Part shown: positions 4,345 through 15,070 of the stretch, in pieces
Position numbering within the stretch: the first letter of the stretch is position 1
Layout of the letters: every line of letters starts with the position of its first letter
Source: Lysobacter silvisoli
GTDB lineage: Bacteria > Pseudomonadota > Gammaproteobacteria > Xanthomonadales > Xanthomonadaceae
DNA: 64,000 bases
Direction: 5' to 3'
NCBI RefSeq assembly: GCF_003382365.1
Contig: NZ_QTSU01000001.1
Location: 744,001-808,000, forward strand
Program-made: the position numbers and the translations under genes
Notes under the pieces: model-generated
The model's database searches: none
What the model was told of the DNA's origin: nothing
Seen by the model: only the letters and a program-made list of their open reading frames with translations

Positions 4345-4851
4345 ATGACCGTTTCCCTGCACACCGCGTCCGTCCCCGTGTTCAAGCAGTTCCTCGGCAG
4401 CCTCAGCGCGCTGCTGGACAAGACCCAGGCCTACGCCGCCGAGAAGAAGATCGAACCGGAGGTGCTGCTGCAGTCGCGCCTGTTCCCGGACATGTTCCCG
4501 CTGGTGCGCCAGGTGCAGATCGCCGCCGATTTCGCCAAGAGCGTGAGCGCGCGCCTGGCCGACGCCGAAGTGCCCTCGTATCCGGACGACGAGACCAGTG
4601 TGGAGCAGTTGCAGGCGCGCATCGCCAAGACCGTCGCCTATATCGACAGCCTGGAGCCGCTGCTGTTCGAGGGCGCGGAGGCGCGCGAAGTGGTGCTGCG
4701 CCCGGGCACGCCCAAGGAGCGCCGTTTCGCCGGCCAGGATTACCTGCTGCACTACGGCCTGCCGCAGTTCTACTTCCACGTCAGCACCGCCTACGCGATC
4801 CTGCGCCACAACGGCGTGGAAGTGGGCAAGCGCGACTACATGGGCGCCTGA
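4345..4851 (+). CDS. DUF1993 family protein
   Basis: A 168-residue cytosolic protein matching the DUF1993 pattern. An all-helical body includes LFPDMFPLVRQVQIAADFAK near residue 50, a conserved middle that pairs ARIAKTVAYIDSL with an RFAGQDYLLHYGLPQFYFHV stretch, and a C-terminal segment AYAILRHNGVEVGKRDYMG. The family is related to DinB-like four-helix bundles and its biochemical role is unknown. The gene appears monocistronic, 166 bp after soxR. The ATG at 4345 is the first good start. Confidence 0.85.
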   Translation: MTVSLHTASVPVFKQFLGSLSALLDKTQAYAAEKKIEPEVLLQSRLFPDMFPLVRQVQIAADFAKSVSARLADAEVPSYPDDETSVEQLQARIAKTVAYIDSLEPLLFEGAEAREVVLRPGTPKERRFAGQDYLLHYGLPQFYFHVSTAYAILRHNGVEVGKRDYMGA

Positions 4852-4957
4852 GCCCCGCGGCGCGCGGCGGATCGCCGCTGCGCGCCCCAGTCCGCCGGCG
4901 CGCTTGCATCGTGCGCGCCGCGCGGCGACCATGCGGCTTGGTTTAGGGGAACCCCGC

Positions 4958-5254
4958 ATGGAACTGCTGACGCTCGACCATTTCGCCCGTCACGTCGACG
5001 AAACCTTCTCGGCGGTCATGAACGACGGCGAGATCCCGTTCGTGCTGGTGGAAGCGCGCGCGCTCAACTCGTCGCAGGTATTGCCCGGCGGGGCGCGAGT
5101 GCCGTTCTCGCTGCTGTTCCGCAACGCGTCGGCGTTCCTGTTCCCGCAGCAGACCTATCTGATGCGCCATGCCGAGGTCGGCGAGGTGGGGATCTTCCTG
5201 GTGCCGGTGGCGCGCGAGCAGGCCGGGTTTTTGTACCAGGCGATTTTTAACTGA
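4958..5254 (+). CDS. DUF6916-type small protein linked to tail-collar genes
   Basis: A 98-residue protein starting MELLTLDHFARHVDETF and ending near FLVPVAREQAGFLYQAIFN. It is predicted to be a compact beta-rich fold (LVEARAL, PFSLLFRN, YLMRHAEVGEVGIFLVPV). I recognise it as the DUF6916-type family that commonly accompanies microcystin-dependent, tail-collar proteins; this is from memory and unchecked. The ATG at 4958 is preferred over an in-frame ATG at 4931 because TAGGGGA lies about 7 nt upstream. It is convergent with the acetyltransferase that ends the tail-collar operon, so it is likely a functional partner transcribed separately. Confidence 0.7.
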   Translation: MELLTLDHFARHVDETFSAVMNDGEIPFVLVEARALNSSQVLPGGARVPFSLLFRNASAFLFPQQTYLMRHAEVGEVGIFLVPVAREQAGFLYQAIFN

Positions 5255-5302
5255 CGGGGTAGGTGGGGTGCGGGTCCGGCTTACGCCGCTGCTAACTCTA
5301 AA

Positions 5303-5370
5303 CAGGGCTTTGCTCATCAGGCGTTCTCGCACCCAAAGCCCTGGATGCCCGCGTTCGCGGGAATGACGGG
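5303..5370. repeat. Palindromic repeat/hairpin between convergent genes
   Basis: CAGGGCTTTG (5303-5312) pairs with CAAAGCCCTG (5334-5343). It runs into the dispersed repeat GGATGCCCGCGTTCGCGGGAA with its internal CCCGCGTTCGCGGG palindrome. It lies between two convergent stop codons and may terminate both transcripts. Confidence 0.6.
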
Positions 5371-5412
5371 GATGGGGCAGTGCGCAGGCTTGAAGGATGC
5401 GCCAGTAGCGAG

Positions 5413-5961
5413 CTAGCTCTGCACCCAGCGCAGCAGCAGGTGCGAGCGCAGATCCTCGACCATCACGAAGCCCAGACGCTGGTACAGCCGGCGCGCGGCG
5501 GCGTTGTCCGATTGCACGTGCAATTGCAGGCCGCAGTCTTGCGCGGCGGCGGTGCGCTGGCTGTGGGCGATGAGCGCTGCGGCCACGCCGCGGCCGCGTT
5601 CGTCCGGAAGCAGGCAGATGTCCACGATCAGGTGATGCGGCGCGGCGCGCTGCAGGTAGTAGCGTCCCGCCGGCGCGCCGTCGCGCTCGATGGCCAGGAA
5701 GTCGGAGTCGCCGTAGTGCGCCAGGTAGTGCTGGTGCTGCAAGGCGAACTGGCTGGCCAGGAACGCGCGCTTGGCCGCGTCGGGCCAGGGCACCGGGGCC
5801 ATTTCCTCGGCGCGGGTGCTGGCGTAGAGCTCGCGCAGCCAGGGCAGGTCGCCGTCGTGCAGCGGCCGCAAGGCGTACCCGCGCTCGCTCAGGAGCGCGG
5901 GTGCCGTCAGGCGGTCGTCGCGGCCCGCCGGAAACGAAGTGAGCTGCGACGGCGCCTGCAT
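5413..5961 (-). CDS. GNAT-family N-acetyltransferase (last gene of tail-collar operon)
   Basis: A 182-residue GCN5-related acetyltransferase that would move an acetyl group from acetyl-CoA to an unknown amine. Motif A is LLPDERGRGVAAALIAHSQ (Q/RxxGxG/A type) and motif B includes LQLHVQSDNAAARRLYQRLGF near the C-terminus. The start lies 4 nt after the stop of the third tail-collar gene, so it is co-transcribed with the collar genes. That linkage makes a collar-family protein or a small molecule bound by it a plausible substrate; this is inference. Confidence 0.85.
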   Translation of the reverse strand: MQAPSQLTSFPAGRDDRLTAPALLSERGYALRPLHDGDLPWLRELYASTRAEEMAPVPWPDAAKRAFLASQFALQHQHYLAHYGDSDFLAIERDGAPAGRYYLQRAAPHHLIVDICLLPDERGRGVAAALIAHSQRTAAAQDCGLQLHVQSDNAAARRLYQRLGFVMVEDLRSHLLLRWVQS

Positions 5962-5965
5962 GTCC

Positions 5966-6499
5966 TCAGCCGAAGCTGGGGAACACGCCCTGCAACGCGA
6001 TGCAGAAGTTCGTCGCGAGGTAGGGCTGGCGGTTTTCGTGCGGCTGGCCGCCGCCGGCCGGCCCGATCATGTTGGGGCTGAACTGGGCGTTGGCGGTGGC
6101 GTTCTGCACGAAGGGATTGCCCGTGGTCGGCAGGCCCAGGTAGTTGCCCGCTGCCGGCGTGGCGGTGCGCTTGCTTTCGTCGGGCTGGTTGTAGACGGTC
6201 AGCGGGTGGGTGTGCGACGGGATGGTGTTCTGGGTCAGGGTCACCGTGTTGCTGCCGTACACCTCGCCGATGCTGTGCGGGGTCAGGCCCGGGCCCTGGC
6301 CCTGTTCGATCGCCACGCGGTTGACGAAGTTGGGCAGTTGGAAGGTGGTCTGGCCGTTGCCGCCGTACTGGGTGCCCAACAGCGAGAACAGCGCGGTGTT
6401 CTGCTGGATCGCCAGGGTGGTGCCGTTGCAGAAGGCCCAGCCGCGCGGCGGGAAGTTGAAGCCGAACAGCTGGATTTCGCCGATGAAAGGTTCGGTCAT
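5966..6499 (-). CDS. Tail-collar domain (microcystin-dependent-protein-like) protein 3
   Basis: A 177-residue protein of the phage tail collar family (MdpB-like). The N-terminal collar domain (about residues 5-60) reads IGEIQLFGFNFPPRGWAFCN, then LLGTQYGGNGQTTFQLPNF. The middle is variable (PSHTHPLTVYNQ onward) and the conserved C-terminal block contains QPYLATNFCIALQGVFPSFG. There is no signal peptide. It is the third of three tandem paralogs that share both ends but differ in the middle, like a set of receptor-binding variants. The start has AGGACACGACC upstream. There are no capsid, tail-tube or portal genes nearby, so this is not a prophage remnant. Confidence 0.9.
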   Translation of the reverse strand: MTEPFIGEIQLFGFNFPPRGWAFCNGTTLAIQQNTALFSLLGTQYGGNGQTTFQLPNFVNRVAIEQGQGPGLTPHSIGEVYGSNTVTLTQNTIPSHTHPLTVYNQPDESKRTATPAAGNYLGLPTTGNPFVQNATANAQFSPNMIGPAGGGQPHENRQPYLATNFCIALQGVFPSFG

Positions 6500-6537
6500 G
6501 GTCGTGTCCTCGAATCGTGATGGCGCGCGGTGGCGGC

Positions 6538-7068
6538 TCAGCCCTGCGACGGGAAGATGCCCGCCCAGGCGATGCAGAACTGCACCGTCAGCGTCGGCAT
6601 TTCGTTGTCGTGCGGCTGGTTGCCGCCGGTGGCGACGATCGCGTTGGCCGCCAGCGCCGCGCCGGTGGCGCCGGTGATGTCGGTGACGTACATGGTTTCG
6701 CCGGAGACCGCGGCGGGCAGAACGGTGTTGCCGACCGCGCCGGTGGTGGCCAGGGCGGTGGTGGCCATGAGCGGGTGGTTGTGGATGGGCAGCTGGCCCT
6801 GGATCAGGGTGACGCTCTCGCTGCCGGCCATCTGCCCGATCACGTAGGTGCCCAGGCCCTGGCCGTGGCCCTGGTGGATCGGCACGCGGCCGCGCAGGTC
6901 GGGCACGGCGAAGGTGTTGATGCCGTCGCCGCCGTAGGTGGTGCCGAGCAGGGTGTACAGAACCTCGTACTCGGCGATGGACTTAAGCGAGCCGTCGCAA
7001 GCGAACCAGCCGTTGGGCACGCGCGAAAAGCCGAACATCCGGATTTCTCCGACGTAAGGGGTGCTCAT
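6538..7068 (-). CDS. Tail-collar domain (microcystin-dependent-protein-like) protein 2
   Basis: A 176-residue collar-family paralog. The N-terminal domain reads VGEIRMFGFSRVPNGWFACD followed by LLGTTYGGDGINTFAVPDL. A variable centre rich in Ala, Thr and Val (ALATTGAVGNTVLPAAVSG) replaces that of its neighbours, and the C-terminal block is MPTLTVQFCIAWAGIFPSQG. No signal peptide or membrane segment is visible. AGGAG sits about 7 nt before the ATG. It lies 30 nt after gene 1 and 38 nt before gene 3 of the operon. Confidence 0.9.
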   Translation of the reverse strand: MSTPYVGEIRMFGFSRVPNGWFACDGSLKSIAEYEVLYTLLGTTYGGDGINTFAVPDLRGRVPIHQGHGQGLGTYVIGQMAGSESVTLIQGQLPIHNHPLMATTALATTGAVGNTVLPAAVSGETMYVTDITGATGAALAANAIVATGGNQPHDNEMPTLTVQFCIAWAGIFPSQG

Positions 7069-7098
7069 AAGGAACTCCTGTAGTGGATGCCGGAAGCG

Positions 7099-7623
7099 TC
7101 AGTTGCGCGACGGATAGATGCCGACCAGCGCGATCACGAAATTGATCACGGTGTAGGGCTGCAGATTCGGATGCGGCTGGCTGCCGCCGGCCGGGCCCAC
7201 ACCCTGCAGCGGGACCAGGGCGCCGGTGGCCGGTCCGAAGATGTTGGTGCCGTTGGTGCCGTACAGGCCGTTGGTGGGGTTGCGCAGCGCGCCGGCCACG
7301 TTGGTGCCGTTGACCAGGTGGTTGTGCTGCGGAATCTGGGTGGTCAACAGGGTCACGTTCTCCACGCCGCCGATTTCGCCCTGGTTGTAGGGCGAGGGGT
7401 TCCAGCTGGGATCGACCGAGTTGCCGGCGCCGACCGGAGTGCGCGACTGCATGTTCGGCAGCGCGAAATTGGTGGTGCCGTTACCGCCGTAGGTGGTGCC
7501 TAGCAACGAAAAAAGGGCCTGATTTTGCGCAATCGCGAGCAGTTGCCCGTTGCACAGGGCAAATCCCTTGGGCGCAAAATTGAACCCCGTGAGCATGATT
7601 TGCCCGAGGAAGACTTCGGTCAT
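7099..7623 (-). CDS. Tail-collar domain (microcystin-dependent-protein-like) protein 1
   Basis: A 174-residue collar-family protein and first gene of the operon. The collar domain reads LGQIMLTGFNFAPKGFALCN then LLGTTYGGNGTTNFALPNM. An Asn/Gly-rich variable middle (NPTNGLYGTNGTNIFGPATG) is followed by NLQPYTVINFVIALVGIYPS. The GGGGGAAAAGGT sequence directly upstream of the ATG is a strong ribosome-binding site. The promoter must lie in the 296-bp gap shared with the divergent giant autotransporter, which points to joint regulation. Confidence 0.9.
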   Translation of the reverse strand: MTEVFLGQIMLTGFNFAPKGFALCNGQLLAIAQNQALFSLLGTTYGGNGTTNFALPNMQSRTPVGAGNSVDPSWNPSPYNQGEIGGVENVTLLTTQIPQHNHLVNGTNVAGALRNPTNGLYGTNGTNIFGPATGALVPLQGVGPAGGSQPHPNLQPYTVINFVIALVGIYPSRN

Positions 7624-7919
7624 ACCTTTTCCCCCGAAAGGTTGGTGGCACGGACGTCATGTCCGGCGCGGGCGCTACTCTCGCTCACACTCCGTACACC
7701 GTACAAGCGAAATTTTTGCGGCGGTGCAGCAAGGAAAATGTGTGAGCTATGTGGCACTTTCTTTGTGCCACGAATCCTGCTTGAATGGTAGTGAGCAGTT
7801 CGCAAGGGGTGCGGCCCGGGTCCTAAGCCCGGTGTCCGCGGACAAGGATACAGGTCTCGCCGGACTGGCTCGAAAGCCCGTGGGCGTTCGGGCCTGTGCG
7901 GTGCCAACAGGGGCAGAAC
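7624..7919. promoter_or_regulatory. Divergent control region of collar operon and autotransporter
   Basis: This 296-bp non-coding stretch is lower in GC than its surroundings. It contains the inverted repeat TGGCAC-N7-GTGCCA (7752-7770) and the dyad CGGAC-GTCAT-GTCCG just upstream of the collar operon. The left arm with following bases (TGGCACTTTCTTTGT) also resembles a sigma-54 promoter, but the expected -12 GC is GT. No other convincing promoter was identified. Confidence 0.45.
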
Positions 7920-10900
7920 ATGCATCAGCAGTTTGCGCATAGCGTGGAGACGCCGCGTGCGCCTTCGCACGTCTTCTTTTCTTCGTTCTTCTCCTGGTTC
8001 GCACTAGCGCTGCTGTTGCTGGGCAGCCTGTGGCCGCGGATGGCGGCGGCGGCGCCGTCTACGTTCTGCCCGACGCTGAGCATGTCGGTGGCCCATAGCG
8101 GCTCGCAGACGATCAACATCAACCACTGCCACGGCGGCTTCGGTATCGCCGCGGGCAGCGCGGCCACGCCGCACGGCACCCGCACGGTGGGCGTGCAGTC
8201 GGGCGCGAATATCCCGTTGACCTACACCCACAACGGCGATAGCGCGACCTCCGACACGTTCATCATCAAGGACGATTTCAACAACGACATCACCGTGACC
8301 GTCGCCATCGGTCCGGCGTCGACCATCACCATCGGCGCCAGCCCGGCGGTCGCGCTGACCGTGGGCGTGCCCTTCAGCACCACCCTCAGCGGCAGCGGCG
8401 GCACCGCGCCGTACACCTTCACTCTCGATAGCGGCCCCATGCCGCCGGGCCTGAGCCTGAGCGGCAACACCATCAGCGGCACGCCGACCCGGCGCGGCGC
8501 CTACGCCTTCACCATCCGCGCCACCGACAACGTCGGCGACAGCGGCGTGCGCACCTTCAGCGGTTCGGCCGCCAATCCGACCCTGGTCCTCGCGCCCCAG
8601 CCACCGCCCGTGGCTGCGCAGGGCATCCCCTACTCGGTCACCTTCACCGCCAGCGGCGGCGTGCCCACGTATGCCTTCGCGCACGAAGTCGCGTCCGGCC
8701 CGCTCCCGCCCGGCCTCACATTGAGCGGCGCCACCCTGAGCGGCACGCCGACCACCGTGGGCACCTTCACCTTCGGCATTCGCGTCACCGACAGCAGCAC
8801 CGGCACCGGCAGCTACGCCGAGATCGAGACGGTGACCCTGCAGGTGATCCTGCCGCCGACCATCGTGGTCAACCCGGCCACCGTGCCAGGCGCCACCGTC
8901 GGCGTGGCGTACAGCCAGACCTTCACCGGCAGCGGCGGCACCGCGCCGTACACCTTCGCCATCACCGCCGGTGCGCTGCCTGCGGGGCTGAGCCTCAATA
9001 CCACCACCGGCGCGCTGACCGGCACGCCGACCGCGGCGGGCACGTTCAACTTCACGGTGCGCGCGACCGACGCCAACAACTTCTCCGGCACCCGCGCCTA
9101 CACCCTGGTGTCGGCGCCGCCGGTGATCGTGGTCGCACCGGCCACGCTGCCCAACGGCGCGGTGGCGGCGGCGTATAGCCAAACCGTCAGCGCCAGTGGC
9201 GGCATCGCGCCGTACACCTTCGCGGTCACCGCCGGCGCCTTGCCGGCCGGCCTGACCCTGAACACCAGCAGCGGCGTCATCAGCGGCACGCCGACCGCGG
9301 GCGGCACCTTCAATTTCACTGTGACCGCCACCGGCAGCAGTACCGGCACCGGCGCGCCGCACACCGGCTCGCGCGCCTACGCGCTGGTGATCGCACCGCC
9401 GACCGTGAACCTGCCGGCGACCAGCCTGGCCAACGGCACCCAGGGCGTGGCCTACAGCGCCACGCTCAATCCGGCCAACGGCGGCACCGCGCCGTACACC
9501 TATGCAGTGACCGCGGGTGCTCTGCCGCCGGGCATCACCCTGACCGCCAGCACGGGCGCGCTGTCCGGCACGCCCACGGCCTCGGGCACCTTCAACTTCG
9601 CTGTGATCGCGACCGACAGCAGCACCGGCTCCGGCCCGTACAACTCGGCGCCGCGCGGCTATGCGCTGCAGATCGTCAACATTCCGCCGGTGGCCAATCC
9701 GGTCTCGGCGTCGGTGGCCTACAACAGCGGCGCCAACCCGATCGCGCTGAACATCACCGGCGGCGTGCCGACCTCGGTCGCCATCGGCACCGCGCCGCTG
9801 CACGGCACGGCGATCGCCAGTGGCACCTCGATCACGTATCAGCCGGTCGCCGGTTACGCCGGTCCGGACAGCTTCACCTACACCGCGACCAACAGCGCCG
9901 GCACCTCGGCGCCGGCCACGGTCAGCATCACCGTCGGCAACCCGACCATCACCGTGACCGCGGGCGGTCCGCTGACCGCGCAGATCGGCGTGGCCTACAG
10001 CCAGACCTTCACCTGGAACGGCGGTACCCAGCCGTTCTCCGGTTACACCGTCGGCGGCCTGCCGGCGGGTCTGGCGATCACCGGCACCACCGCCAACAGC
10101 GTGACCGTGTCCGGTACGCCGAGCGCGGCGGGCTCGTTCACGCTCAGCCCGAGCGCGACCGACAGCAGCACCGGCAACGGTCCGTTCACCGTCTCGCAGA
10201 ACTTCACCCTGTCGGTGAGCGCGCCCACGCTGACGCTGACGCCCGCCGCGGGCACGCTGAGCGCGACCTACGGCAGTGCGTTCAGCCAGACCTGGGTCGC
10301 TGGCGGCGGCACCCCGGCCTACACCTATGCGATCTCGGCGGGCGCCTTGCCGGCCGGCCTGAGCCTGGACGCCAGCACCGGCGTGCTGTCGGGCACGCCC
10401 ACCGTCACCGGTCTGTTCACCTTCTCGGTGCGCGCGACCGACAGCTCCACCGGCGCGGGCGCACCGTTCGCACGCACCCAGAACTACGTGCTGCAGGTGG
10501 CGGCGCCGACCATCACGGTTTCGCCGGCCACCGTGCCGGGCGCGCAGGTGGGCACGGCCTACAGCCAGGCCCTGAGCGCCAGCGGCGGCATCGCGCCGTA
10601 CACGTTCGCCACCACCGCCGGCGCCTTGCCGCCGGGCATCACCCTGAGCGCCGGCACCCTGAGCGGTACGCCGACCGCGGGCGGCACCTTCAACTTCACC
10701 ATCACCGCCACCGACAACCACGGCCAGACCGGCTCGCGCGCCTACAGCCTGACCGTGGGCGCGGCGACGATCACCGTGGCGCCGGCCTCGCTGGCCGACG
10801 GTGGCGTGGCCCAGGCCTACAGCCAGACCGTGACCGCTTCGGGCGGCACCGCCGGCTATAGCTTCGCGGTCACCGCGGGCGCGTTGCCGACCGGCCTGAG

Positions 10901-13900
10901 CCTGGCCACGAACGGCGCGATCACCGGTACGCCCACCGCCGGCGGCAGCTTCAACTTCACCATCACCGCCACCGACAGCAGCTCGGGCAGCGGCCCGTAC
11001 ACCGGTTCGCAGTCCTACAGCGTGCTGATCACCGCCGCGACCGTGGTGCTGCCGCCGTCGGTCCTGCCCAACGGCACGGTCAGCAGCGCCTACGGCGTGG
11101 CGATCAATCCGGCCACCGGCGGCACCGCGCCTTACAGTTATGCCGTCGGCACCGGCAGCCTGCCGCCGGGCCTGTCGATCGGCGGCGCCGGCGCCATCAC
11201 CGGCACGCCGACCACGCCGGGCACCTACAGCTTCACCCTGATCGCCACCGACAGCAGCACCGGCAGCGGCCCGTACTCGTCGGCGCCGCAGAGCTACAGC
11301 CTGCAGATCAACGACATCGTGCCGGTGGCCAACCCGGTCAGCGCGACGGTGGCCTATGGCAGCGGCGCCAACCCGGTGACGCTGAACATCACCGGCGGCA
11401 TTCCGGCCTCGGTGGCCATCGGCACCGCGCCCGCGCACGGCACGGCGATCGCCAGCGGCACCTCGATCACGTACCAGCCGGCCGCCGGTTATGCCGGTCC
11501 GGACAGCTTCACCTACACCGCGACCAACAGCGCCGGCACCTCGGCGCCGGCCACGGTCACCATCACCGTCGGTAACCCGACCATCACCGTGACCGCGGGC
11601 GCTCCGCTGACCACCCAGGTCGGCGCCAGCTACAGCCAGACCTTCACCTGGGCCGGCGGCACTTCGCCGTACAGCGGTTTCGCCGTCACCGGTCTGCCGG
11701 CCGGTCTGAGCATCAGCGGCACCACCGCCGACAGCGTGACCATCTCGGGCACGCCGACGGCGGCGGGCAGCTTCAGCCTCAACGCCAGCGCCACCGACAG
11801 CAGCACCGGCAACGGTCCGTTCACCGTGGGTCAGGTCTTCACCCTGACCGTGGGCGCGCCGACGCTGACGATGACCCCGGCCGCGGGCAACCTGCCGATG
11901 AACTACGGCACGGCCACCACCATCAACTTCGCCAGCAGCGGCGGCACCGCGCCGTACAGCTATTCGCTGGCCGCCGGTTCGCTGCCGGTGGGCGTGAGCC
12001 TGAGTTCGACCGGCGTGCTCAGCGGTACGCCGACCGTGCCGGGCAACTACAACGTCACCGTGCGCTCCACCGATGCCAGCACCGGCGCGGGCGCGCCGTT
12101 CTCGGTGCAGCAGAACTACACCATCGTGGTGGCGACGCCGGCGATCGCCATCGATCCGCCCAGCCTGCCCAACGGCACCGCGGCCACGGCCTACAGCGCG
12201 CAGCTCAGCTCCACCGGCGGCGTCGCGCCGTACAGCTACTCGCTGCTGGCCGGTGCGCTGCCGATCGGCATGAGCTTCAGCTCGACCGGCGCGCTCTCGG
12301 GCATCCCGCGTTCGGACGGCAACTTCAGCATCACCGTGCGCTCCACCGACGCCAACGGCCAGACCGGCAGCCGCGTGTACACCTTCACCATCGCCCCGGC
12401 GACGGTGGTGATCGCGCCGGCCAGCCTGCCGGGCGGCGTGGTGGGCGTGGCCTACTCGCAAAGCCTGAGCAGCAGCGGCGGCATCGCGCCGTACACCTAC
12501 TCGATCGTGTCCGGCACGCTGCCGGTCGGCATCGCCTTCAGCTCGGCCGGCGCCATCAGCGGTACGCCGGTGACCGCCGGCAGCTACACCTTCGTGGTGC
12601 GCTCCACCGACGATGCCGGCTACAACAGCACCCAGAGCTACACCATCGTGATCGCCGACGCGGTCCCGGTGGCGGTGAACGACAGCGCGACCACGCCGTC
12701 GCAGCAGGCGGTGACCATTCCGGTCACGGCCAACGACAGCGGCGTGATCACCTCGGTCGCGGTGGCCAGCGCTCCGGCGCACGGCACCGCCACGGTCAGC
12801 GGCCTGAACGTGGTCTACACGCCGACCGGCACCTACTTCGGCGCCGACAGCTTCACCTACACCGCGACCGGTCCGGGCGGCACGTCGGCCCCGGCTACGG
12901 TGTCGATCACCGTCACCGCGCTGCCGGTGCCGGTGGGCCAGCCGCGCACCGCCACCACCCTGGCGGGCCAGCCGGTCGTCATCGACACCACCGTGGGCGC
13001 CACCGGCGGTCCGTTCACCGGCGTGACCCTGGTGACGCCGCCGGCCACCGGCACCACCACGGTGACCGGCACCAACATCACCTACACCCCGCTGGCCTCG
13101 GCCTCGGGCACGGTGAGCATCGTCTACACCTTGAACAACGCCTACGGCGCTTCGGCTCCGATCACCTCCACGGTCACGGTCAATCCGGTGCCGGTCGCGG
13201 TCTCGCGCCGGGTCACCGCCAACGCGGGCGTCCCGGCGGTGGTCGAGCTGACCACCGGCGCCACCGGCGGTCCGTTCACCGCGGCCAACCTGGTGTCGCT
13301 GTCGCCGGCCGGTGCGGGCACCGCCACGATCGCGTCCTCGGGCAGCGGCGCCAGCGCGAGCTACCGCCTGACGTTCACCCCGGCGGCCACGTTCTCCGGC
13401 ACCGCCACGGCCACGTTCACCCTGAGCAACGCGTTCGCGACCTCGGCGCCGGCGACGATCGACTTCGACGTCATCGGCCGCCCGGATCCGACCCAGGACG
13501 CGGAAGTGATGGGCCTGCTGGGCGCGCAGACCGCCACCGCGCGGCGCTTCGCCACCACCCAGATCGGCAACTTCCAGCGTCGTATGGAAGGCATGCACGA
13601 CGGCGGCAGCGGCGCGCGCTTCGACAACGGCCTGAGCTTCGGCGTCGACCGCCGCTGCCAGGACGAGGCGCGGCGCACGCCGGGCAGCGATTGCCGTCAG
13701 GTGTCGATGCTCGACGAGTCCGCGCCGGTCGACAACGCCGCGGCCGCGCGCAGCGGCGGCGACGGCGGCGGCCTGACCATCTGGACCGGCGGTTCGCTCA
13801 ACAGCGGCGACCGCGACAGCCGTTCGGGCAGCGCGGGCTTCGACTTCGAGACCAGCGGCATCAGCGCCGGTATCGACACCCGCGTGAACCAGGCCTTCGC

Positions 13901-14600
13901 CTTCGGCGGCGGCATCGGCTACGGCCGCGACAACACCGACGTCGGCCGCAACGGCACCCGCAGCGACGGCAAGAGCTACACCCTGGCCGTGTACGGCAGT
14001 TACCACCCGGGCGAGAGCTTCTTCGTCGACGGCCTGCTGGGCTACCAGTGGCTGTCGTTCGACTCGCGCCGCTACGTGACCGCCAACGGCGCGCTGGTGC
14101 GCGGCGACCGCGACGGCAAGCAGTGGTTCGCCTCGCTGTCGCTGGGCGGCGATTACCACCGCGACCAGCTGTCGCTGACCCCGTACGCGCGCCTGGACAT
14201 CGCCCGCGCCACGCTGGACGGCTACACCGAGCGCGGCGACGCGATCTATGCGCTGCGTTACCAGGATCAGGATGTGGACACCACCACCGCCAGCCTGGGC
14301 CTGCGCATGGATTACCGCTTCCCGGTCAGCTACGGCACGTTCTCGCCGCAGCTGCGCCTGGAGTACCAGCACGACTTCCAGGACGACAGCTCGGTGACCC
14401 TGAGCTACGCCGACCTGCCGGGCGGGCCGTTCTACCGCGGCGAAATCGACGGTCTCAAGCGCAACCGGTTCGTGTTCGGCCTGGGCGCGGTGTTGCAGAC
14501 CGAGCGCGACTTCACCCTGCGGTTCGAGTACCGCGGCCTGTTCGGCAGCGACGACGATAGCGACCATGGCGTGCTGCTGAACCTGGAGAAGAAGTACTGA
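7920..14600 (+). CDS. Giant putative-Ig-repeat autotransporter adhesin
   Basis: A 2,226-residue surface protein. An N-terminal signal peptide (LFALALLLLGSLWPRMAAAA-type core, cleavage near AAAAPS) targets it to the Sec system. A passenger of about 1,830 residues holds fourteen repeats of putative Ig type (each ending in a variant of SGTPTxxGTFNF). These are interrupted by three Big_9-like modules (VANPVSASVAY, VANPVSATVAY, VAVNDSATTP) and followed by two looser VxTGATGGPFT modules. A linker (EVMGLLGAQTATARRFATTQ) leads to a C-terminal autotransporter beta-barrel of about 270 residues ending in KKY. The ATG at 7920 is favoured over GTG 7896 because AGGGGCAGAAC precedes it. The passenger shows higher-order duplication with a period near 1.64 kb. 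Adhesion or biofilm function is inferred from domains only. Confidence 0.9.
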   Translation: MHQQFAHSVETPRAPSHVFFSSFFSWFALALLLLGSLWPRMAAAAPSTFCPTLSMSVAHSGSQTININHCHGGFGIAAGSAATPHGTRTVGVQSGANIPLTYTHNGDSATSDTFIIKDDFNNDITVTVAIGPASTITIGASPAVALTVGVPFSTTLSGSGGTAPYTFTLDSGPMPPGLSLSGNTISGTPTRRGAYAFTIRATDNVGDSGVRTFSGSAANPTLVLAPQPPPVAAQGIPYSVTFTASGGVPTYAFAHEVASGPLPPGLTLSGATLSGTPTTVGTFTFGIRVTDSSTGTGSYAEIETVTLQVILPPTIVVNPATVPGATVGVAYSQTFTGSGGTAPYTFAITAGALPAGLSLNTTTGALTGTPTAAGTFNFTVRATDANNFSGTRAYTLVSAPPVIVVAPATLPNGAVAAAYSQTVSASGGIAPYTFAVTAGALPAGLTLNTSSGVISGTPTAGGTFNFTVTATGSSTGTGAPHTGSRAYALVIAPPTVNLPATSLANGTQGVAYSATLNPANGGTAPYTYAVTAGALPPGITLTASTGALSGTPTASGTFNFAVIATDSSTGSGPYNSAPRGYALQIVNIPPVANPVSASVAYNSGANPIALNITGGVPTSVAIGTAPLHGTAIASGTSITYQPVAGYAGPDSFTYTATNSAGTSAPATVSITVGNPTITVTAGGPLTAQIGVAYSQTFTWNGGTQPFSGYTVGGLPAGLAITGTTANSVTVSGTPSAAGSFTLSPSATDSSTGNGPFTVSQNFTLSVSAPTLTLTPAAGTLSATYGSAFSQTWVAGGGTPAYTYAISAGALPAGLSLDASTGVLSGTPTVTGLFTFSVRATDSSTGAGAPFARTQNYVLQVAAPTITVSPATVPGAQVGTAYSQALSASGGIAPYTFATTAGALPPGITLSAGTLSGTPTAGGTFNFTITATDNHGQTGSRAYSLTVGAATITVAPASLADGGVAQAYSQTVTASGGTAGYSFAVTAGALPTGLSLATNGAITGTPTAGGSFNFTITATDSSSGSGPYTGSQSYSVLITAATVVLPPSVLPNGTVSSAYGVAINPATGGTAPYSYAVGTGSLPPGLSIGGAGAITGTPTTPGTYSFTLIATDSSTGSGPYSSAPQSYSLQINDIVPVANPVSATVAYGSGANPVTLNITGGIPASVAIGTAPAHGTAIASGTSITYQPAAGYAGPDSFTYTATNSAGTSAPATVTITVGNPTITVTAGAPLTTQVGASYSQTFTWAGGTSPYSGFAVTGLPAGLSISGTTADSVTISGTPTAAGSFSLNASATDSSTGNGPFTVGQVFTLTVGAPTLTMTPAAGNLPMNYGTATTINFASSGGTAPYSYSLAAGSLPVGVSLSSTGVLSGTPTVPGNYNVTVRSTDASTGAGAPFSVQQNYTIVVATPAIAIDPPSLPNGTAATAYSAQLSSTGGVAPYSYSLLAGALPIGMSFSSTGALSGIPRSDGNFSITVRSTDANGQTGSRVYTFTIAPATVVIAPASLPGGVVGVAYSQSLSSSGGIAPYTYSIVSGTLPVGIAFSSAGAISGTPVTAGSYTFVVRSTDDAGYNSTQSYTIVIADAVPVAVNDSATTPSQQAVTIPVTANDSGVITSVAVASAPAHGTATVSGLNVVYTPTGTYFGADSFTYTATGPGGTSAPATVSITVTALPVPVGQPRTATTLAGQPVVIDTTVGATGGPFTGVTLVTPPATGTTTVTGTNITYTPLASASGTVSIVYTLNNAYGASAPITSTVTVNPVPVAVSRRVTANAGVPAVVELTTGATGGPFTAANLVSLSPAGAGTATIASSGSGASASYRLTFTPAATFSGTATATFTLSNAFATSAPATIDFDVIGRPDPTQDAEVMGLLGAQTATARRFATTQIGNFQRRMEGMHDGGSGARFDNGLSFGVDRRCQDEARRTPGSDCRQVSMLDESAPVDNAAAARSGGDGGGLTIWTGGSLNSGDRDSRSGSAGFDFETSGISAGIDTRVNQAFAFGGGIGYGRDNTDVGRNGTRSDGKSYTLAVYGSYHPGESFFVDGLLGYQWLSFDSRRYVTANGALVRGDRDGKQWFASLSLGGDYHRDQLSLTPYARLDIARATLDGYTERGDAIYALRYQDQDVDTTTASLGLRMDYRFPVSYGTFSPQLRLEYQHDFQDDSSVTLSYADLPGGPFYRGEIDGLKRNRFVFGLGAVLQTERDFTLRFEYRGLFGSDDDSDHGVLLNLEKKY

Positions 14601-14641
14601 TCGAGCGGGGGCGCGGCGACGCGCCCTCCGTTCTCAGGAAC

Positions 14642-14683
14642 GCCGGCGCGGCGTCGCCGTGAACGCCGCGCCGGCATTTTTTT
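14642..14683 (+). terminator. Rho-independent terminator after the autotransporter
   Basis: A perfect 13-bp GC stem (GCCGGCGCGGCGT at 14642-14654 with its complement at 14663-14675) and an 8-nt loop are followed by A then seven T residues. It lies about 40 bp after the autotransporter stop. Confidence 0.92.
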
Positions 14684-14719
14684 GCGCGCCCCGCAACGGG
14701 CGTGCAGGGGAGGGGACGC

Positions 14720-15070
14720 GTGCGCTGGCGCATCGCGGGACTGATCCTGGCCGCGGCCTGTTGGGCGCCGCCCGTGGCCGGCCATGGCGGCGGGCTGGAC
14801 AAGCACGGCTGCCATAACGACCGCCGCAACGGCGGTTATCACTGCCACCGCGGTGGCGGCGCGGCTGCGCCGGCACGCGAGTCCGCTCGCGATGAGGCGG
14901 CTTCGTTCGTGTTTGATCGCGGGCCTGCGCGGTCGGGCGGCGCCTACCGCAATTGCAGCGAAGCCCGCGCCGCTGGCGCCGCGCCCTTGAGCCGCGGCGA
15001 GCCTGGGTACGGCGCGCATCTGGATCGCGATGGCGACGGGATCGCCTGCGAGCCGTATCGGGGGCGGTGA
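14720..15070 (+). CDS. Secreted YHYH/excalibur domain protein
   Basis: A 116-residue exported protein. A signal peptide (IAGLILAAACWAPPVAG) is followed by a YHYH-type histidine/cysteine motif (HGGGLDKHGCHNDRRNGGYH region, about residues 28-48). A C-terminal excalibur domain has the DRDGDGIACE calcium-binding signature. Such proteins are small extracytoplasmic metal- or calcium-binding factors of unknown role. The GTG at 14720 is chosen because AGGGGAGGGGACGC precedes it; the upstream in-frame GTG at 14702 lacks this. Confidence 0.85.
   Translation: MRWRIAGLILAAACWAPPVAGHGGGLDKHGCHNDRRNGGYHCHRGGGAAAPARESARDEAASFVFDRGPARSGGAYRNCSEARAAGAAPLSRGEPGYGAHLDRDGDGIACEPYRGR

Follow-up and report, generated by a model that had tools for sequence, protein, structure and literature searches.

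Within a 64,000-nucleotide stretch of the Lysobacter silvisoli genome (contig NZ_QTSU01000001.1, positions 744,001 to 808,000; this whole stretch is hereafter called the window) we found a cassette of three phage tail-collar-like genes, a GNAT acetyltransferase gene and a DUF6916 gene, lying next to a divergent gene for a giant repeat autotransporter. It is near certain that the collar, GNAT and DUF6916 genes form a conserved cassette, which was detected in at least eight phyla, Deinococcus counted, and its tie to giant proteins is very likely. The three collars represent three lineages, A, B and C, which occur once each in most triplet loci, carry a conserved His-x-His (HxH) motif and are kin to phage tail tips of the T4 gp12 type. 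We tentatively read the cassette, with a confidence slightly short of evenly balanced, as a phage receptor-binding tip that has been domesticated and consists of three fixed subunits; together with GNAT and DUF6916, it would work with a giant adhesin.

Organization of the cassette in the window

The collar operon is encoded on the minus strand in the order collar A, B, C and GNAT, and faces the convergent DUF6916 gene on one side and the divergent autotransporter gene on the other (Table 1). Open reading frames (ORFs), sequence and Pfam matches located every part that a first-pass annotation of this DNA had named, at the places where it had put them, including the acetyltransferase 4 nt behind the collars. 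The three tandem collars were likewise confirmed to have conserved ends and different middles, with pairwise identities of 42–63% over residues 1–65, 29–38% in the middle and 44–62% in the C-terminal part. All three exceed the gathering score of 24 bits for Collar (PF07484), and the 4.54-Mb source genome contains no further Collar match at E 0.001. The 296-bp gap between collar A and the autotransporter is also present, but calling it a shared control region follows from the divergent layout only, because no sigma-70-like promoter pattern was found between positions 5200 and 8000 (0 found, 0.2 expected). No Rfam match reached the gathering score in 4800–15000. In agreement with the earlier statement that phage structural genes are missing from the surroundings, no sheath, baseplate or head gene was seen by Pfam among 10 window proteins, collars included. 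A known anti-phage defence system was rejected as the identity of the locus, as 6 proteins gave 0 matches to PADLOC models (E 0.01).

Table 1. Features of the cassette and of its divergent neighbour (positions are those of the window)
Feature	Position	Strand	Match or basis
DUF6916 gene, 98 aa	4958-5254	+	PF21880, 100.9 bits; convergent with collar operon
GNAT acetyltransferase gene, 182 aa, last gene of operon	5413-5961	-	PF00583, 57.1 bits (Pfam gathering score 20.7)
Collar C, 177 aa	5966-6499	-	PF07484, 92.0 bits; lineage C
HxH codons of collar C (His96, His98), putative metal-site motif	6206-6214	-	invariant alignment columns
Collar B, 176 aa	6538-7068	-	PF07484, 89.5 bits; lineage B
Collar A, 174 aa, first gene of operon	7099-7623	-	PF07484, 91.1 bits; lineage A
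Divergent intergenic region, collar A/autotransporter, 296 bp	7624-7919	.	sequence
Giant autotransporter, 2,226 aa	7920-14600	+	He_PIG/Big_9 Ig-like (immunoglobulin-like) repeats; C-terminal beta-barrel PF03797

Collar, GNAT and DUF6916 genes are linked in at least eight phyla

Co-occurrence was followed in 149 genomes at the family level. Collar was present in 49 of them, with three or more hits in 41 genomes, one in 8 and two in none. DUF6916, found in 39 genomes, occurred in 39 of the 41 genomes that have at least three Collar hits as against 0 of the 108 others (Fisher p 7e-34; here and below, Fisher tests treat genomes, genes and loci as independent, though related ones are not). The triplet genomes without DUF6916 were G064 and G118. 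Forty family neighbourhoods were fetched, leaving out G085, which is a near copy, and taking two from G067; they were chosen for clusters of at least three Collar hits, and the number three is thus partly given by selection there. With the window included, the GNAT profile was found within 4 kb of the collars in 41/41 family loci and DUF6916 in 35/41.

The phylum-level survey of 398 genomes gave DUF6916 in 44 and Collar in 100, with Collar present in 43 of the 44 DUF6916 genomes compared with 57 of the 354 without DUF6916 (p 1e-28). The sole DUF6916 genome lacking a Collar match was G218 (locus L147). Among 40 phylum neighbourhoods, 39 contained collars, three in 24, one in 11 and two in 4; 38 of the 40 came from DUF6916 genomes (38 of the 44), so DUF6916 is present there by construction. 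At one locus (L139, genome G198), ~46 kb of contig separate DUF6916 from the collar triplet, and therefore DUF6916 need not adjoin the collars. The GNAT profile lay within 4 kb of the collars in 35/39 phylum, 5/5 plasmid and 67/79 named loci. Over all 164 collar loci, 148 hits fell inside this 4-kb range and 1 outside it, the amounts of DNA searched inside and outside being roughly the same.

The layout of the window is repeated on plasmid pB of Sinorhizobium meliloti LMB1, which carries an Ig-repeat autotransporter (1,405 aa), three collars, GNAT and a convergent DUF6916, with identities to the window proteins of 63% (A), 55% (B), 66% (C), 44% (GNAT), 46% (DUF6916) and 52% (autotransporter). 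Related sets were observed in Rhizobium bangladeshense, Ruegeria sp. TM1040, Deinococcus sp. KNUC1210 and Comamonas antarctica. The named loci are 79 loci among the best 80 matches to the collar C alignment in a species-genome collection, a choice by which triplets may be over-represented; exactly three collars, accompanied inside 4 kb by DUF6916 and GNAT, were seen there in Pseudomonadota (41/48), Acidobacteriota (3/9), Bacteroidota (2/6), Actinomycetota (3/5), Chloroflexota (2/3), Verrucomicrobiota (1/1), Bacillota (1/1) and unplaced genomes (1/3). The exact triplet set was seen in 0/2 Myxococcota and 0/1 Planctomycetota loci, the latter having six collars. Three distant loci have a gene of ~400 aa between the collars and GNAT (L170:12598-13815, L169:12614-13864 and L151:8822-10135); one of the three encodes a periplasmic-binding-protein homologue, one gave no Pfam match and one only weak matches.

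The collars resemble phage receptor-binding tips and keep an HxH motif

The collar profile matched solved structures of phage tips by hmmsearch, namely 8kec, the long tail fibre of cyanophage A-1(L) (E 3.2e-9), and the T4 gp12 structure 1ocy (E 1.3e-6) along with 1pdi (E 3.4e-6). The model of collar C found the same structures by Foldseek (E 9e-6 to 1.3e-4), but at a template-modelling score of ~0.45 and a root-mean-square deviation of at least 15. His96 and His98 are invariant across 58 aligned collar sequences, and an HxH motif lies within residues 61–140 in 198/198 called collars of at least 150 aa. In phage-type fibres, among them those of R-pyocins and T4 gp37, the motif builds a metal site to which three chains contribute six histidines in all; T4 gp12 also bears it (PMC6116203). 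The cassette collars share profile similarity and a tentative likeness in fold with the T4 gp12 and cyanophage A-1(L) tips, and differ from these phage tips in standing without a fibre shaft or, where looked for, other tail genes alongside, in having three fixed paralogues in most loci, and in being tied to GNAT and DUF6916.

Most triplets contain one collar of each lineage

In a tree of 120 family collars, the sequences sorted by their position in the operon, with 3 label changes compared with 57 in shuffles. A tree of 35 hand-picked triplets from eight phyla resolved lineage A with 35 members (support 100/96) and lineage B with 35 (100/99); the remaining 35 make up C, which was not resolved as one clade. 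All 35 loci hold A, B and C once each, the order of A and B being swapped in five of them (L133, L134, L165, L212 and L234). When profiles made from these 35 triplets were applied to 98 further triplets, 91 scored as one-of-each and 90 of the 98 had the order A-B-C; by set, one-of-each was found in 37/37 family, 11/14 phylum and 43/47 plasmid and named triplets. Collar counts, the cross-phylum tree and triplet scoring were based on all ORFs, ordered by stop codon in the tree. Three pairs of loci (L175/L078, L206/L074 and L181/L141) were each judged to be one genome met twice, and the last pair touches the profile training set.

As A, B and C occur once per locus, the three look like fixed, non-interchangeable subunits. 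Each is roughly as large as a bare tail-fibre tip, and together they may form a hetero-oligomer of the gp12 kind around a metal centre, most likely a single A-B-C heterotrimer in which six histidines, two per chain, would hold one metal ion. The heterotrimer is suggested because three fixed paralogues coincide with a probable three-fold fold; it is, with the surface role considered below, the best-supported guess, at chances about even or lower.

The same fold could instead give three separate gp12-like homotrimers, each with its own ligand, so that the surface or the giant adhesin would gain a wider binding range; of the readings considered, this one comes nearest to the first-pass annotation. 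Related phage proteins of this fold are trimers built from one kind of chain (PMC6116203), each paralogue has kept its own HxH, and one-collar loci exist (11/39 phylum and 9/79 named best-match loci), the collars of one- and two-collar loci grouping outside lineages A and B in a quick tree. A mere repertoire, however, should vary in number and lose members, whereas family genomes have three or more Collar hits, or one, but never two, and the one-of-each composition recurs in 35/35 and 91/98 loci. We regard separate homotrimers as unlikely, though far from negligible.

The collar middles evolve faster than the ends, without an excess of dN over dS

Nonsynonymous (dN) and synonymous (dS) divergence were compared in 12 hand-chosen pairs of close relatives, with L080 and L098 each used in two pairs. 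Mean dN was 0.20 in the collar middle compared with 0.055 in the N-terminal part, and the middle was higher in 36/36 comparisons, although part of this difference possibly comes from alignment or saturation, because mean dS is also higher there (0.71 vs 0.45, p 7e-4). In each of the three collar regions dN exceeded dS in 0/36 comparisons, and diversifying selection with dN above dS was rejected. Phage tail collar paralogues of Candidatus Solibacter usitatus have been reported to be under positive selection (PMC3174227), unlike the collars compared here. The identities of the middles of A, B and C covary (Spearman 0.70–0.89), for which shared divergence time alone could suffice. The earlier proposal that the collars are diversified binding tips needs revising, as they are no freely diversifying set but three old lineages with one member each per locus in 35/35 and 91/98 triplets; the variable middles may nevertheless form the binding head.

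These data also bear on whether the genes are the remnant of a prophage or tailocin. PF07484 and the best PHROG matches are tail proteins, and collars of similar size occur in phages such as phiExGM16. On the other hand, sheath, baseplate and head genes are missing both from the 10 window proteins scanned by Pfam and from the annotation of five plasmid loci, and, the collars apart, neither shows a tail or tube gene; all 258 matched phage records are below 60% identity and none of them matches DUF6916 (E 0.01); and dN is low in the conserved collar ends. A remnant was rejected on the gene content of the window and plasmid loci together with the phage-record comparison, and we consider it barely tenable.

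GNAT and DUF6916 as putative partners of the collars

The best NCBIfam match of GNAT was the RimI equivalog TIGR01575, at 38.4 bits and below its cut-off of 86.4. Of 120 called collars, 109 carry Ser, Thr, Ala or Gly as residue 2, and the start appears to be mis-set in several of the other 11; this fits N-terminal acetylation by the linked GNAT, without showing it. The operon-linked enzyme may modify the collars, as the first-pass annotation had also proposed, perhaps as an N-alpha-acetyltransferase.

DUF6916 was predicted as a small beta-rich domain (AlphaFold2 mean predicted local distance difference test, pLDDT, 90.5). Foldseek returned nothing firm for it, with best E values of 0.19 against the Protein Data Bank and 0.012 against viral models, and VIA-align gave a middling likeness to YcgR-N-like domains, within the range that the tool rates as common. 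The genes following each of two phage collars were considered as DUF6916 relatives, and a two-sequence search gave unconvincing E values of 0.038 and 0.18. No paper in the open-access literature searched mentions DUF6916. Phage fibres often need small chaperones, such as gp57A, gp38 and Tfa, and because of this an assembly role is proposed for DUF6916, which could act as assembly partner or adaptor. In L073, L075 and L092 a second DUF6916-like gene is placed between collar C and GNAT; L074 and L083 have a small protein there, with a Tat-like N-terminus by eye in L083.

Giant repeat proteins flank the cassette

The window autotransporter contains He_PIG in 14 stretches, a PF03797 barrel at residues 1954–2204 (204.5 bits) and a hydrophobic N-terminus (12-residue mean hydropathy of 2.44 in the first 45 residues). 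The first-pass annotation had made co-occurrence in other genomes the check on the pairing of collar operon and autotransporter, and the two do co-occur: a close orthologue (C-terminal 466 aa, E 1e-80 or better) was present in 28/41 triplet genomes compared with 8/108 others (Fisher p 1.4e-13), and an autotransporter-like match lies upstream of collar A, in divergent orientation, in 28/40 family loci. Seven other family loci (L073, L074, L075, L083, L086, L092 and L095) have a co-directional giant of 1,464–2,564 aa located 21–154 nt before collar A, and the two of these that were scanned are cadherin/Ig-repeat proteins. In L072 and L084 an Ig-repeat protein has a short hydrophobic anchor-like C-terminus in place of the barrel, that is, the same passenger type with different anchoring. 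The first autotransporter gene is followed by a second one and a DUF1993 gene in L070, L081 and L085. Among five family loci without the giant partner pattern, L077 and L102 are short contigs. The triplet collars of L082 and L094, from genomes without a DUF6916 hit, have no giant surface protein nearby, and their large neighbour is by eye not a surface protein; a sulfotransferase, an HPr-kinase-like protein and an NTP_transf_5 protein are among the neighbours in L082. The triplet collars of L079 adjoin a DUF4915 protein and an apparent subtilisin-type protease, with no large neighbour.

Genes of at least 1,400 aa made up 33/80 flanking genes compared with 2/325 others in the family loci and 18/69 compared with 5/319 in 35 phylum loci, figures that carry no correction for the kinship of loci; L127, L143, L147, L153 and L158 stand outside the phylum counts. 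An open frame of at least 900 aa lay within 2.5 kb in 42 of 54 complete-set best-match loci, although GC-rich DNA can contain long open frames that do not encode a protein. Twenty of the 26 phylum-locus giants (at least 1,000 aa) were scanned, and matched Big_9 (10), DUF4347 (10), He_PIG (7), the autotransporter barrel (3), RTX repeats (1), tandem-95 repeats (11) and the BapA/Bap/LapF adhesin model (3; E 0.01). Giant partners also matched models of Ca-stabilised adhesins (E 0.01). DUF4347 may be a frequent companion domain of the cassette. LEPR-XLL, which we take to be the name of the motif, was applied when reading N-termini.

It could be argued that the collar-GNAT-DUF6916 set is real and the giant protein an unrelated neighbour. 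The autotransporter occurs in collar-free genomes, the partner changes its type, and 17/35 phylum loci have no directly adjacent gene of at least 1,000 aa. A passive neighbourhood is nevertheless very improbable in our judgement, since giant genes are enriched beside the cassette in two locus sets and in differing orientations, and the same neighbourhood recurs in rhizobia. The earlier pairing of collars and autotransporter is thus borne out in that the parts belong together, but the autotransporter is one of several alternative giants and also exists without collars.

Weighing of a surface attachment role

Taken as a whole, the collar tip and the neighbouring giant repeat protein might constitute a surface attachment device. 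In its most complete form, this would be an attachment machine present in eight phyla or more and centred on an obligate A-B-C heterotrimer of captured tail-tip proteins, with a single octahedral metal site to which each of the three unlike chains gives two His. A dedicated acetyltransferase and DUF6916 would mature the heterotrimer, which would act together with the lineage's own giant adhesin, and the change from homotrimer to heterotrimer would have come about by gene triplication before or during spread between phyla. We think this complete form possible and rather doubtful.

Several observations weigh against a heterotrimeric tip acting at the surface with a giant adhesin. The AlphaFold2 monomer of collar C has a pLDDT of 73 and is good at the N-terminal 60 residues only; such a poor model beyond the N-terminus might be expected if the chain folds in an intertwined trimer, which is no proof of it. 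The raised dS of the collar middles makes their fast evolution less telling. Seven of the 98 further triplets did not score as one-of-each, mostly by a few bits, and some loci carry one, two, four or six collars. The autotransporter orthologue is found in 8 collar-free genomes and lacking in 13 of the 41 triplet genomes. The giant varies between loci (autotransporter, cadherin-like, DUF4347) and is absent in some; where phylum loci lack an adjacent one, six of the 17 have a gene of at least 1,000 aa slightly farther off (L130, L136, L138, L145, L161 and L166). The chief weakness is that none of 120 collars shows a Sec-like N-terminus (within the first 35 residues, the top 12-residue mean hydropathy reaches a median of 1.05 and a maximum of 1.83); no exporter gene was seen within the cassette. 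RhiA, from an operon with the collar protein RhiB, served as a cytoplasmic marker and was undetected in supernatant (PMC2275737, PMC13133039).

The missing Sec-like N-terminus and the RhiA observation would suit a role in the cytosol, where a collar oligomer might help to fold, hold, modify or regulate the giant, or be unrelated to the surface, and where GNAT and DUF6916 would also act. Both of these look cytosolic, DUF6916 from its sequence; the same kind of collar accompanies giants of differing architecture; and RhiA is abundant as well as cytosolic (PMC2275737). A cytosolic role is less easily reconciled with the apparent receptor-binding-tip fold and with the fast-evolving middle, as expected of a binding head, and some loci add exported-looking genes, for example the periplasmic-binding-protein homologue in Deinococcus. 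We rate a purely cytosolic role as fairly unlikely, and keep the surface tip of three fixed subunits as the tentative reading.

Comparison with known systems

Phage-fibre-like trimers on a bacterial surface are exemplified by the mosaic adhesive trimer fibres of Bdellovibrio, which are single long fibres. COG4675 (microcystin-dependent protein) and MdpB are, as we take it, collar proteins of the same broad non-phage collar family. COG4675 appears several times in one soil metaproteomics study (PMC5579227); it is an annotation label, and no operon or function for it was found among the literature matches listed. RhiB of the Rhizobium rhiABC(D) operon is likewise a collar-domain protein encoded outside phages; the collar domain is present in RhiB and in neither RhiA nor RhiC, and the operon is flanked by rhiI/rhiR (PMC13133039), whereas no luxI/luxR family was detected by Pfam among the 10 window proteins. 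With autotransporters and BapA/LapF-type adhesins the window giant shares the barrel and Ig repeats, and partners elsewhere match BapA/Bap/LapF-type models.

No description of giant adhesins encoded with collar proteins was found in the part of the open-access literature that was accessible to the search, and none of the cassette among the open-access matches listed for collar with adhesin, autotransporter, acetyltransferase or filament. Each part comes from a known family and the combination matches no system found; as far as the open-access literature searched goes, the cassette appears new as a system, not as folds. Non-phage collars are annotated as 'tail fiber protein' (five plasmid loci) or 'microcystin-dependent protein', and no function for such annotated proteins was found among the open-access literature matches listed. 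If the tentative reading is true, a viral receptor-binding tip has been put to use by bacteria from several phyla within their own attachment apparatus, DUF6916, a domain of unknown function, gains a biological setting, and annotations that now suggest prophage remains would be corrected. From the three-lineage rule follows a definite composition that can be tested (A+B+C), with the partners GNAT, DUF6916 and often a giant repeat protein, for which the loci of Ruegeria sp. TM1040, Sinorhizobium meliloti LMB1 and Deinococcus sp. KNUC1210 can be named for study.

Other features near the cassette

A 2,187-aa open frame at 8004–14567 on the minus strand lies antisense to the autotransporter, and is most likely a composition effect of the GC-rich repeat gene. 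Downstream of the autotransporter, a small gene with an Excalibur calcium-binding domain is present at 14702–15070 on the plus strand.

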